DNA of 64,000 nucleotides from an uncultured Pelagibacteraceae bacterium (GTDB taxonomy: Bacteria; Pseudomonadota; Alphaproteobacteria; Pelagibacterales; Pelagibacteraceae), in NCBI GenBank assembly GCA_902597865.1, contig CACJZL010000002.1:1-64000 (forward strand). Direction: 5' to 3'. Positions 2 to 3,639 of this stretch are shown in pieces; the stretch's first letter is position 1, and each line of letters starts with the position of its first letter. The notes below the pieces were generated by a model. That model was not told the origin of the DNA, searched no databases, and worked only from the letters and a program-made list of their open reading frames with translations. A program made the position numbers and the translations under genes.

Positions 2-568
2 ATTGTAGACCAATTTATTGATAGAACTTTTGCAAGAAAAAAAACTTTTTTTGAGGACGAAATTGTAGCCCATGTATCAATGGCACACCCAACTTCAACT
101 GGATTAATGAATGCATGTGAAGATGCAATCAAGAAAGAAAAGATCGATTATCAAAGAAATGGCACTTACATTGTAATGGAAGGTCCGCAGTTTTCCACAT
201 TAGCGGAGTCTAATTTATATAGATCTTGGAAAGCTGATGTAATTGGAATGACTAACATGCCTGAGGCAAAATTAGCAAGAGAAGCTGAGATAAGATATGC
301 GTCGGTTTCAATGGTTACAGATTATGATTGCTGGCACCCAGATCATGAAAATGTTGATGTACAACAAGTAATCAAAGTTCTTTTAGGTAATGCCGCAAAA
401 GCAAAAAATATGATTAAAAACCTTATAGAAAATTTTGAAAAACATATTGATCTAAAAGATCCAACAAATAATTGTTTAGATGTAGCTATTATAACAGCAC
501 CAGAAAAAAGAACTCAAAAAACTAAAGACAAATTAAAAACAGTTGCTGGTAGAGTTTTAAATAAATGA
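2..568 (+). CDS. mtnP: S-methyl-5'-thioadenosine phosphorylase (5' end truncated by window edge)
   Basis: Frame is open upstream of the listed ATG at 80 (IVDQFIDRTFARKKTFFEDEIVAHVSMAHP...); YIVMEGPQFSTLAESNLYRSWKADVIGMTNMPEAKLAREAEI is typical of MTAP; next to mtnA. Confidence 0.93.
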   Translation: MVDQFIDRTFARKKTFFEDEIVAHVSMAHPTSTGLMNACEDAIKKEKIDYQRNGTYIVMEGPQFSTLAESNLYRSWKADVIGMTNMPEAKLAREAEIRYASVSMVTDYDCWHPDHENVDVQQVIKVLLGNAAKAKNMIKNLIENFEKHIDLKDPTNNCLDVAIITAPEKRTQKTKDKLKTVAGRVLNK

Positions 569-1635
569 AAATTGAAGGAAAAGAATATAGAACAATTTGG
601 TTTGAAAATAATATTGTTAAGATAATTGATCAAACAAAACTCCCACACCAATTTATTATAAAAGATCTTAAAACAGTTAAAGACACGATAAATGCAATTA
701 AAATAATGGAGGTAAGAGGCGCACCTTTAATAGGAGCCACCGCAGCTTATGGGTTAGTTTTAGCTATTTTAGAAAATAATGATCAATCTTTTTTAAAGAA
801 ATCGGCTGAAGATTTAATAAGATCAAGACCTACAGCAATTAATTTAAAATGGGCAGTAGATAGAATGATGAATAAACTTTCAGGGGTTAATAGTGAAAAA
901 ATTTTAGATATTGCTTTGAATGAAGCAAAAGAAATTTGTGAAGAAGATATAAAGTTTTGTGAAAATATAGGATTAAATGGTCTAAAGATAATTGAGGAAA
1001 TTTATAATAAAAAAAAAGATACAGTAAACATTTTAACCCACTGCAACGCAGGATGGCTTGCAACAATTAATTGGGGTACAGCTACATCTCCAATTTATCA
1101 TGCACATAAAAAAGGCATTCCAGTTCATGTTTGGGCAGATGAAACTAGGCCCAGGAACCAGGGTGCAAACTTAACGTCATATGAATTAAATGAGGAAGGT
1201 ATTAAAAATACAATCATTGCAGACAACACTGGTGGAATTTTAATGCAGAGAGGGCAAGTGGATATGTGTATAGTTGGAACTGATCGCACTTTATCTAATG
1301 GTGATGTGTGTAATAAAGTAGGGACTTATCTTAAAGCACTTGCCGCAAAAGATAACAATATACCATTTTATGTGGCTTTACCAAGCTCGACTATCGATTG
1401 GAAAATTAAAAATTCTAAAGATATTCCAATTGAAGAAAGAAGTTCAGAAGAGTTGTCAAAAATCGAAGGTATTGACGAAGATGGTAAAGTAAAAAAAGTA
1501 AAGATATATCCAAATAAAAGTAAGGTTATGAATTTAGCATTTGATGTTACTCCAGCAAAATATATAACTGGTTTAATAACTGAAAAAGGTATTTGCGAAG
1601 CATCAGAAAAAGGATTAAAAAATTTATTTAAATGA
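565..1635 (+). CDS. mtnA: S-methyl-5-thioribose-1-phosphate isomerase
   Basis: MEVRGAPLIGATAAYG, THCNAGWLAT, VWADETRPRNQGANLTSYEL, GTDRTLSNGDVCNKVGTY motifs; 4-nt overlap with mtnP. Confidence 0.95.
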   Translation: MKIEGKEYRTIWFENNIVKIIDQTKLPHQFIIKDLKTVKDTINAIKIMEVRGAPLIGATAAYGLVLAILENNDQSFLKKSAEDLIRSRPTAINLKWAVDRMMNKLSGVNSEKILDIALNEAKEICEEDIKFCENIGLNGLKIIEEIYNKKKDTVNILTHCNAGWLATINWGTATSPIYHAHKKGIPVHVWADETRPRNQGANLTSYELNEEGIKNTIIADNTGGILMQRGQVDMCIVGTDRTLSNGDVCNKVGTYLKALAAKDNNIPFYVALPSSTIDWKIKNSKDIPIEERSSEELSKIEGIDEDGKVKKVKIYPNKSKVMNLAFDVTPAKYITGLITEKGICEASEKGLKNLFK

Positions 1636-1955
1636 ACCCGCTTATTTTATCACTTGTTTGTCTTTTATTAGTTGGAGTTTCTGCTAATTGGCTAAGTATT
1701 GTTAAGAATAATAAGACATTAATTTATCTTTCTTTAGCACCATGTATTTATATAGCAATATATGGAATTTATTTAGTTATTGGACCTGTTGATTTGTATG
1801 AAGACGGTTCAAAAAACTTTTTTATGCAGAACCCTTATGAAAGTGAGCTTCCACCACAGTTTTTATTATTAAAGCTTTACCAGTATATTCTAATAGGCGT
1901 AGGTGTAATTTTTGGGTATTTATTTTTAAAATATTTAAAAAATTATGGACGTTAA
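1632..1955 (+). CDS. small hydrophobic (about 3 TM) protein of unknown function
   Basis: 107 aa ORF with hydrophobic segments, overlapping both neighbours (mtnA and aldolase) in a co-oriented run. Confidence 0.75.
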   Translation: MNPLILSLVCLLLVGVSANWLSIVKNNKTLIYLSLAPCIYIAIYGIYLVIGPVDLYEDGSKNFFMQNPYESELPPQFLLLKLYQYILIGVGVIFGYLFLKYLKNYGR

Positions 1956-2592
1956 GAGTAGAGAAGAAATAATAAAATTTGCACAAAAACTAAATAGTAC
2001 AAATTTATCTCCGCTAAGATCAGGAAATATTTCACTTAAAGCTCAGAACAATAATGAAGAGGGGTTTTTAATTACTCCATCAGGCAAAAAATACGACAGT
2101 TTAAAAGCTGATGATATAGTCTTTGTATCTTTAGAGGGGAGATATGATGAAAAAGGTTTGCAGCCTTCTTCGGAATGGAGATTTCATAAAGATATTTATT
2201 TAAAGAAGGCTGATGCAAAAGCCGTCGTCCATGCTCATTCACCACACGCAACAGCTGTATCAGCACACAACAAAGACGTCCCTGCCTTTCATTACATGAT
2301 AGCTTTAGCTGGTGGAGATAATATAAAGTGCGCAAAGTATGCAACTTTTGGAACACAAGAACTATCTGACAATATTATTGAAGCGTTAGAAAATAGAAAG
2401 GCATGCTTGATGTCTAATCACGGTCAAGTTGCTTATGGGGATAACTTGAACTCAGCCTTTGAACTTGCAGAAGAAGTTGAAAATATTTGCCATCAATACA
2501 TAAATGCAATAAAGTTAGGAGAACCTAAGATTCTTTCATCAAGTGAGATGGATGTAATATTAGAAAAAGTTAAAAACTATAAAAAAGGATAA
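1945..2592 (+). CDS. class II aldolase family protein, FucA/Ald2-like
   Basis: TPSGKKYDSLKADDIV, SSEWRFHKDIYLKKADAKAVVHAHSPHATAVS, HYMIALAGGDNIKCAKYATFGTQELS, MSNHGQVAYGDNL; resembles fuculose-1-P aldolase more than MtnB dehydratase. Confidence 0.88.
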   Translation: MDVKSREEIIKFAQKLNSTNLSPLRSGNISLKAQNNNEEGFLITPSGKKYDSLKADDIVFVSLEGRYDEKGLQPSSEWRFHKDIYLKKADAKAVVHAHSPHATAVSAHNKDVPAFHYMIALAGGDNIKCAKYATFGTQELSDNIIEALENRKACLMSNHGQVAYGDNLNSAFELAEEVENICHQYINAIKLGEPKILSSSEMDVILEKVKNYKKG

Positions 2593-2598
2593 CTTTTT

Positions 2599-3639
2599 AT
2601 GACGAAGGTTGGGGAGCACGTCACTTTAGATATCATAGGTACTGAAAAAGAGTACGAACCAAAATTCTTTGAAAAACTAGTTTATAAAATATCAAAGAAG
2701 GCAAAGGTAACTGTTCTAGAGATTTCAAAGTATAAATTTGAGCCACAAGGCTTCACTCTTATAGCTTTATTAGCAGAAAGTCATATCAGCTTTCATACTT
2801 TCCCAGAAAGAGGAATTATAAGTTTTGATTTTTTTACGTGCGGAAAAGTAAATCCTAATGTTGCCTTCGATATTATAAAAAAAGAAATTAAGCATAAAAG
2901 AATTGTTAAAAAAGAATTCAATAGAGATACAATAAGTTATTATGATGATATTTATAGCTCACCAGGTTTAAAAAAATATTACATGGTTAAAGATGTTTTG
3001 GAAAACTTTACATCAAAAGTAGGTCAAAACATTGAAATTTTAGATTTAGAACAATTTGGCAAATCTCTATTTATCGATGGTGAACTTCAGGTGGCAGAAA
3101 ATGATGAACACTTGTATAGCTCAACATTTGTAAACTCTGGTTTAAAACTGAATCCATCAAATGATAAAACTGCAATTATTGGCGGAGGAGATGGAGGCGT
3201 AGCAAGAGAGTGTATATCTAAGGGTTTTAAACTAATTGATTGGTATGAGTTAGATCCCGAAGTTGTAACAATGTGTGAAAAATATTTATCTAAGGTAGGT
3301 AAGAAAGCTACTACAAAAAACCATGTGCAATGTGTATGGGGAGATGCATTTGAAAGTATTAAATCAGTTGAAGATAATAAGTATGATAAAATTTATGTAG
3401 ATTTAAACGATGATCAGTATTGTATTGATTTGGCCGCAAAAAATATCAAATCTTTAAAAAGAATTCTTAAGCCAAATGGAACAATAACTGCACAAGTTGG
3501 AAGCCAAGATAAAAAACCTAAACAAGTTGATAAATGGTTAAATCTTTTTGAAAAAAGTTTTGGCAATACGTCATTAGACAGAGTTTATATCCCAAGCTTT
3601 GATTGCTCTTGGAATTTTGCATCTTCTCTAAATAAATAA
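2599..3639 (+). CDS. speDE: fused S-adenosylmethionine decarboxylase (SpeD) - aminopropyltransferase/spermidine synthase (SpeE)
   Basis: N-terminal AdoMetDC with pyruvoyl-forming LAESHISFHTFPERGIISFDFFTCG; C-terminal SpeE-like domain with IIGGGDGGVARE and YDKIYVDLNDD. Confidence 0.9.
   Translation: MTKVGEHVTLDIIGTEKEYEPKFFEKLVYKISKKAKVTVLEISKYKFEPQGFTLIALLAESHISFHTFPERGIISFDFFTCGKVNPNVAFDIIKKEIKHKRIVKKEFNRDTISYYDDIYSSPGLKKYYMVKDVLENFTSKVGQNIEILDLEQFGKSLFIDGELQVAENDEHLYSSTFVNSGLKLNPSNDKTAIIGGGDGGVARECISKGFKLIDWYELDPEVVTMCEKYLSKVGKKATTKNHVQCVWGDAFESIKSVEDNKYDKIYVDLNDDQYCIDLAAKNIKSLKRILKPNGTITAQVGSQDKKPKQVDKWLNLFEKSFGNTSLDRVYIPSFDCSWNFASSLNK

Follow-up and report, generated by a model that had tools for sequence, protein, structure and literature searches.

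The polyamine locus of SAR11 bacteria probably carries a dihydroxyacetone phosphate shunt for methylthioadenosine, with an exchangeable aldolase

A methylthioadenosine cassette beside the spermidine synthase gene

The stretch of DNA analysed here (the window) comprises the first 64 kb of contig C2 (108,840 bp) from an 864,543-bp genome that groups with the Pelagibacteraceae (SAR11); its G+C content is 30.6%. At its left edge, positions 2 to 3,639 hold a run of co-oriented genes that ends in a speD-speE fusion (speDE), a predicted source of 5'-methylthioadenosine (MTA). From sequence comparisons, we conclude that this SAR11 polyamine locus very probably has its own MTA-disposal cassette, and that the cassette encodes the dihydroxyacetone phosphate (DHAP) shunt rather than methionine salvage through MtnBCD. 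This reading is well supported because the aldolase of the cassette lies outside the MtnB clade, retains the FucA catalytic residues and belongs to a clade of mtn-linked aldolases, and because MtnD is absent from 118 genomes of the family. The argument draws on direct observations of gene content, order, conservation, co-occurrence, mutual exclusion, clade membership and catalytic residues; the enzymatic activities are predicted. The genes are as follows.

2..568, + strand: mtnP, MTA phosphorylase, 3' part, 188 amino acids (aa) (NCBIfam NF006492, E = 6e-84, model positions 103-290 of 291)
565..1635, + strand: mtnA, 5-methylthioribose-1-phosphate isomerase (TIGR00512, 424 bits, cut-off 279)
1632..1955, + strand: 107-aa open reading frame (ORF) with three hydrophobic stretches (hydropathy), no family match; outside the module
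1945..2592, + strand: class II aldolase, predicted to cleave 5-methylthioribulose-1-phosphate and possibly also 5-deoxyribulose-1-phosphate (PF00596, 173.6 bits)
2599..3639, + strand: speDE, S-adenosylmethionine (AdoMet) decarboxylase fused to spermidine synthase, predicted MTA source (AdoMet_dc and Spermine_synth domains)

The ORFs are closely packed. The mtnP/mtnA and mtnA/107-aa ORF junctions are 4-nucleotide (nt) overlaps (ATGA in each case), the 107-aa ORF and the aldolase gene overlap by 11 nt, and 6 nt separate the aldolase gene from speDE. Because the contig begins inside mtnP, the 5' end of that gene and the divergent apt gene seen in relatives are missing from the window. The mtnP product also matches the PNP_UDP_1 and MTAP families, and full-length orthologues in relatives exceed the MTAP cut-off.

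The initial annotation had described a co-oriented five-gene module. The order that it gave (mtnP, mtnA, membrane protein, aldolase, speDE) was recovered in full, with all ORFs on the forward strand; as a conserved unit, only four of these genes, together with the divergent apt, hold up. The order mtnP-mtnA-aldolase-speDE is present in 21/21 aldolase-type SAR11 loci examined. Since the corresponding functions are, in addition, nearly all-or-none across the family, this arrangement is far beyond what chance would produce. The 107-aa ORF, by contrast, matched no Pfam or NCBIfam model and had no homologue among 40 related loci; it was for this reason excluded from the module, and a conserved five-gene order was rejected. 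In some loci (L045, L046, L047, L055 and L064), unrelated genes are inserted at varying places around mtnA, encoding alpha/beta hydrolase-like, aminotransferase-like and Ldh_2-type dehydrogenase proteins and an enoyl-CoA hydratase with a CoA-binding protein. The surroundings of mtnA look like an insertion hot spot.

How might MTA be processed by such a cassette? SpeDE would produce spermidine and release MTA; orthologous SAR11 speDE fusions examined in Escherichia coli have AdoMet decarboxylase and spermidine/spermine/thermospermine synthase activity (PMC11107197). MtnP, using phosphate, would then split MTA into adenine and methylthioribose-1-phosphate, the adenine being converted to AMP by the neighbouring Apt in those relatives that carry it. 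MtnA would isomerize methylthioribose-1-phosphate to methylthioribulose-1-phosphate, from which the FucA-like zinc aldolase is predicted to generate DHAP and 2-(methylthio)acetaldehyde. The DHAP would enter central carbon metabolism, and the aldehyde presumably yields a C2 methylthio compound, with methanethiol as a possible further product. No gene was identified for the conversion of methylthioethanol or methylthioacetate to methanethiol. The compound 5'-deoxyadenosine may be a second input of the cassette.

The aldolase is FucA-like and distinct from MtnB

The aldolase had been proposed to resemble fuculose-1-phosphate aldolase rather than the MtnB dehydratase, and the motifs cited for this are indeed found in the protein. 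We placed it in a tree of SAR11 aldolases, 60 other alphaproteobacterial aldolases, eight MtnB proteins and the FucA and Ald2 proteins of E. coli. MtnB forms a separate clade (support 100/100), with the window aldolase outside it. The SAR11 proteins fall among alphaproteobacterial aldolases linked to mtnA, mtnP or mtnK; one or more of these genes lies near the aldolase gene (within about 6 kb on either side) in 46 of the 60 non-SAR11 loci. Thus, the separation from MtnB that the initial annotation anticipated is borne out and the mtn-linked clade agrees with it, but the protein does not group with E. coli Ald2. The latter pairs with E. coli FucA, apart from the alphaproteobacterial mtn-linked enzymes, and E. 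coli Ald2 and the alphaproteobacterial type therefore seem to have been recruited independently from within the FucA family. Enzymes of the "Ald2" kind appear, from this topology, to have originated more than once.

In E. coli FucA, the catalytic and zinc residues of the family are Glu73, His92, His94, Tyr113, His155 and Tyr209. All are retained in the window protein, as E77, H96, H98, Y117, H159 and Y212 in the alignment. The codons of those in the interior of the protein lie as follows.

2173..2175, + strand: Glu77, equivalent to FucA Glu73 (alignment with E. coli FucA)
2230..2238, + strand: His96 and His98, equivalent to the FucA zinc ligands His92/His94 (alignment)
2293..2298, + strand: Tyr117-Met118, with Tyr117 equivalent to FucA Tyr113 (alignment)
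2419..2421, + strand: His159, equivalent to the FucA zinc ligand His155 (alignment)

These features bear on whether the protein could be an MtnB-type dehydratase in an unrecognised methionine salvage pathway. The two enzymes share a superfamily, and the MtnB model TIGR03328 does score 75.8 bits against the window protein, far below its cut-off of 137. The Tyr at the FucA 113 position is present in all SAR11 (14/14), mtn-linked (46/46) and unlinked (14/14) aldolases and in none of the eight MtnB proteins, which have Leu or Phe. Given also the separate clade and the lack of MtnD in the family, MtnB identity was rejected, and we regard it as extremely improbable. Because the only Aldolase_II protein in the window's genome is the FucA-like one, that genome has no MtnB. 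MtnD above the curated cut-off was found in 0/118 family genomes; sub-cut-off ARD matches in three genomes were left uncounted, as were other Aldolase_II matches (~20-30% identity) in several SAR11 genomes, which are different family members at other loci. A complete mtnBCD pathway elsewhere, which would have spoken against the shunt, was rejected on the absence of MtnB and MtnD; the searches did not include MtnW, or MtnC and MtnK genome-wide.

Could the protein instead be a true aldolase of L-fuculose-1-phosphate, or of a related sugar-1-phosphate, that sits in this operon incidentally? Its top solved-structure and NCBIfam matches are FucA, it is 46% identical to the E. coli enzyme (FucA residues 9-209, from the PDB alignment), and it keeps every catalytic residue. 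Yet it reaches none of the curated FucA cut-offs (TIGR01086, 185.8 of 400 bits; NF005984, 205 of 264; NF005302, 204 of 264), and it groups with the mtn-linked alphaproteobacterial aldolases rather than in the clade of E. coli FucA. No fucose genes adjoin the locus (the genome-wide searches did not include fucI and fucK). Fucose use is rendered implausible, moreover, by the fact that in relatives the same slot is taken by another aldolase, or by a nucleosidase in place of mtnP-mtnA-aldolase. We therefore consider this explanation highly unlikely.

One alphaproteobacterium of another family (locus L075) has an aldolase 64% identical to that of the window and nested in the SAR11 aldolases, with an mtnA product 53% identical; horizontal transfer of this aldolase is possible.

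Polyamine synthesis and the cassette co-occur across the family

We surveyed a family set of 118 genomes, of which 45 are at least 90% complete. The fusion speDE was detected in 94 of them, mtnA in 88, mtnP in 87 and the FucA-like aldolase in 56. A full set, in which speDE, mtnP and mtnA are accompanied by either of two aldolases (the second is described below), occurs in 80/118 genomes (51 with the FucA-like enzyme, 29 with the bifunctional one), and none of the five functions in 20/118. Partial sets account for the other 18/118, and several of these are broken by contig ends (G093, G091, G116 and G011, with a match starting within ~20 bases of the end). Because the sets are nearly all-or-none, the polyamine fusion and the MTA cassette are gained and lost almost as one unit. 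The tie between polyamine synthesis and MTA disposal is thus stronger than had been claimed for it.

These distributions also speak to a different account of the cassette, in which it serves mainly to dispose of 5'-deoxyadenosine from radical-SAM enzymes, the aldolase cleaves 5-deoxyribulose-1-phosphate to DHAP and acetaldehyde, and the proximity of speDE is secondary. The shunt is bifunctional in Rhodospirillum rubrum and E. coli, and the DrdA enzyme of Bacillus thuringiensis uses the deoxy substrate (PMC10986504, PMC8102628); the two substrates are inseparable by sequence. Against this, speDE is contiguous in all aldolase-type SAR11 loci examined and was detected in 88 of the 90 genomes with either aldolase, and where the cassette is absent, speDE is mostly missing as well or is adjoined by a gene resembling those of MTA nucleosidases. 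A principal role in deoxyadenosine disposal is accordingly unlikely in our judgement.

The aldolase slot is exchangeable

Those mtnA-bearing SAR11 genomes that lack the FucA-like aldolase carry, with the exceptions of G092 and G100, a gene that lies between mtnA and speDE and is read from the other strand (for example, L055:7296-9329, - strand). It encodes a protein of ~677 aa in which an Aldolase_II domain is fused to a short-chain dehydrogenase, an architecture of the RhaEW superfamily. The two aldolases exclude one another: among the 88 mtnA genomes, 54 have the FucA-like enzyme, 32 the bifunctional one, none both and two neither. In these sister lineages, cleavage of methylthioribulose-1-phosphate would fall to the RhaEW-superfamily enzyme, which would also oxidise (or reduce) the resulting aldehyde. 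In one stretch from G100 (L244), ABC-transporter and FGGY-kinase-like genes come after mtnP and mtnA, and no aldolase is present within the stretch fetched. Among 80 fetched named contigs that carry the bifunctional protein, 65 have mtnA within the locus; in nine further contigs with full flanks, mtnA is elsewhere in the genome, ~9-14 kb off where positions were compared.

The trees of the flanking genes require nine (mtnA), six (speDE) and ten (mtnP) changes of aldolase type, and their well-supported branches alone force at least 5-6 switches. The aldolase slot is therefore exchangeable and has been switched repeatedly among SAR11 relatives. Both kinds of aldolase stand in one locus in the single-cell genome AG-435-M03 (L211, 6251-9022), where the order is speDE-aldolase-bifunctional-mtnA-mtnP-apt and the aldolase frame is full length; this is likely an intermediate of the exchange.

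A third arrangement was found in at least four genomes: G026 and G078, which are complete and belong to the window's genus, and a pair from another genus (G012, G040). All have speDE and lack mtnP, mtnA and either aldolase. Between the divergent apt and speDE they encode a 174-178-aa protein related to MTA/S-adenosylhomocysteine nucleosidase, which scores under every nucleosidase cut-off. The MtnN-like genes that replace the mtnP-mtnA-aldolase block lie at the following positions.

L237:7820-8344: MtnN-like nucleosidase
L238:6253-6780: MtnN-like nucleosidase
L239:4768-5304: MtnN-like nucleosidase
L240:7238-7774: MtnN-like nucleosidase

In these few lineages, the nucleosidase would act in place of the block. 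The protein occurs in 7/118 genomes, six of which are without mtnP and mtnA. In G005, the nucleosidase gene adjoins apt though speDE is not detectable. In G048, mtnA has been lost and a 43-residue aldolase remnant persists between mtnP and speDE. Adjacent apt-like and MtnN-like genes were also seen at L247:6071-7112 (G010, 8% contamination), on a contig whose other ORFs are phage-like. Relatives of the nucleosidase (27-43% identity) are present in a few phage records, and comparison of the nucleosidase with PHROG gave no match; phages may carry the apt-nucleosidase pair.

The bifunctional enzyme as a second candidate shunt aldolase

Outside SAR11, we examined 40 alphaproteobacterial loci (L249-L288) that encode the bifunctional protein (~44-54% identical). 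In 23 of them, mtnA, mtnP or mtnK is adjacent to and co-oriented with its gene. All 40 copies, like 95/95 from SAR11, retain the Glu and three His of the aldolase domain and the Tyr/Lys pair of the dehydrogenase, whose Ser is conserved save for one Thr. Fewer genomes than expected combine the two kinds of aldolase (four seen against ~11 expected; one-sided p = 0.005, uncorrected for kinship). A metagenome-assembled genome labelled Gammaproteobacteria has the order bifunctional-mtnA-mtnP-apt, with an mtnA product 57% identical to that of the window. The association with mtn genes suggests a second kind of DHAP-shunt aldolase, apparently undescribed, with a built-in aldehyde dehydrogenase; we found no paper connecting a RhaEW-type protein with MTA among the open-licence papers searched.

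It might be objected that the 677-aa protein is an ordinary RhaEW of the rhamnose pathway and that it stands between mtnA and speDE by chance. The domain architecture is that of RhaEW, which converts L-rhamnulose-1-phosphate to DHAP and L-lactate with NAD+ (PMC3870299). The protein falls below the cut-off of the corresponding model TIGR02632 (RhaD_aldol-ADH; 448 vs. 567.75 bits), however, and scores above that of a separate subfamily, NF006192 (886.7 vs. 639 bits). It never accompanies the FucA-like aldolase among the 86 mtnA-bearing genomes that have either, and it adjoins mtn genes in the 23 non-SAR11 loci just mentioned, whereas the study of RhaEW places its orthologues always within rha loci (PMC3870299). 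A rhamnose role thus seems rather unlikely. We lean, somewhat beyond even odds, toward the view that the NF006192 family is a second, independent kind of aldolase for 5-methylthioribulose-1-phosphate that occurs widely in Alphaproteobacteria and predominates in several SAR11 lineages. On this view, it is repeatedly swapped with the FucA-like aldolase beside the spermidine synthase gene, and its fused dehydrogenase oxidises or reduces the methylthioacetaldehyde released by cleavage. By analogy with RhaEW, its products would be DHAP and (methylthio)acetate, an "oxidative DHAP shunt" in which the direction of the dehydrogenase reaction is presumed.

Weighing the DHAP shunt against known systems

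Several observations weigh against the DHAP-shunt reading. The aldolase is closer to E. coli FucA than to the verified Ald2 of E. coli ATCC 25922 (46% vs. 39% identity; WP_000439686.1, L226:16197-16838), so that its substrate assignment rests mainly on context. The aldolase-type locus contains no alcohol or aldehyde dehydrogenase to complete the route. The window's own genome is judged 73% complete. Finally, the Fisher p-values for co-occurrence and exclusion are tiny but disregard phylogeny; as they ignore kinship, the counts of forced switches are the better evidence.

On the other side stands the precedent of MtnP-MtnA-Ald2 shunts (PMC5893883, PMC10986504), to which the initial annotation had likened the locus; the clade of the aldolase, its residues and the absence of MtnB and MtnD support that comparison. 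In the published systems, an operon in R. rubrum and an mtnP-mtnA pair in Rhodopseudomonas palustris, MtnP, MtnA and Ald2 convert MTA to DHAP plus 2-(methylthio)acetaldehyde, from which methylthioethanol and methanethiol follow (PMC5893883); the mtn linkage of the alphaproteobacterial aldolases reported above agrees with these published arrangements. Like the shunt of R. rubrum, R. palustris and E. coli of the extraintestinal pathogenic type (MtnP or MtnN plus MtnK, then MtnA and Ald2), the SAR11 locus encodes co-oriented MtnP, MtnA and a FucA-like aldolase with the same predicted products, and no MtnB or MtnD. It differs in being joined to speDE, in its exchangeable last step and in an aldolase that is not closest to E. 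coli Ald2. Known carriers of the shunt are, moreover, mostly terrestrial according to the R. palustris study (PMC5893883), in contrast to SAR11.

Other systems share parts of this organization. Universal methionine salvage (MtnB, MtnC or MtnW/X, MtnD) has MtnP and MtnA in common with the SAR11 locus, and MtnB and MtnD are the enzymes missing from the latter. RhaEW (L-rhamnulose-1-phosphate aldolase/L-lactaldehyde dehydrogenase) resembles the 677-aa protein in domains, intact catalytic residues and predicted DHAP production; the SAR11 and mtn-linked alphaproteobacterial proteins belong to another subfamily and are encoded near mtn genes (no search for rha genes was made). DrdA, the 5-deoxyribulose-1-phosphate aldolase of B. 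thuringiensis, is likewise of the FucA family and disposes of a sugar phosphate derived from a SAM by-product. Its route starts from 5-deoxyribose and is kinase-based, in contrast to the phosphorylase-based SAR11 route tied to spermidine synthesis. PDB entry 6btd, which we take to be DrdA, matched the window aldolase at E = 2e-44. Compared with MtnN/Pfs, the protein of the alternative cassette is a distant, short relative, and an MtnN-type route would hydrolyse MTA without recovery of ribose carbon.

Implications for SAR11

Among heterotrophs of the surface ocean, SAR11 is the most abundant, and each aminopropyl transfer in polyamine synthesis makes one MTA. These bacteria are unable to reduce sulfate and obtain sulfur from methionine, dimethylsulfoniopropionate and methanethiol, the last being converted to methionine via MetY or MetC (PMC5069961). 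Because SAR11 depends on reduced sulfur and has this MetY/MetC entry to methionine, a route that yields methanethiol would be useful. In the available portion of PMC8437039, the published SAR11 polyamine scheme ends at MTA. The DHAP shunt itself is already known. Three aspects appear to be new: in SAR11 the shunt is linked to polyamine synthesis, its last enzyme has been replaced repeatedly at a single position, and there is evidence for a further kind of shunt aldolase, one that is fused to a dehydrogenase. The last of these yields a functional prediction for a large subfamily of enzymes whose relatives have been described in rhamnose catabolism, and the three-way exchange of cassettes offers natural comparisons for tracing the fate of the sulfur. 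If our reading is correct, SAR11 would regain both the ribose carbon and the adenine of MTA through a DHAP shunt of its own, which could also give the methylthio group back as methanethiol usable by MetY.

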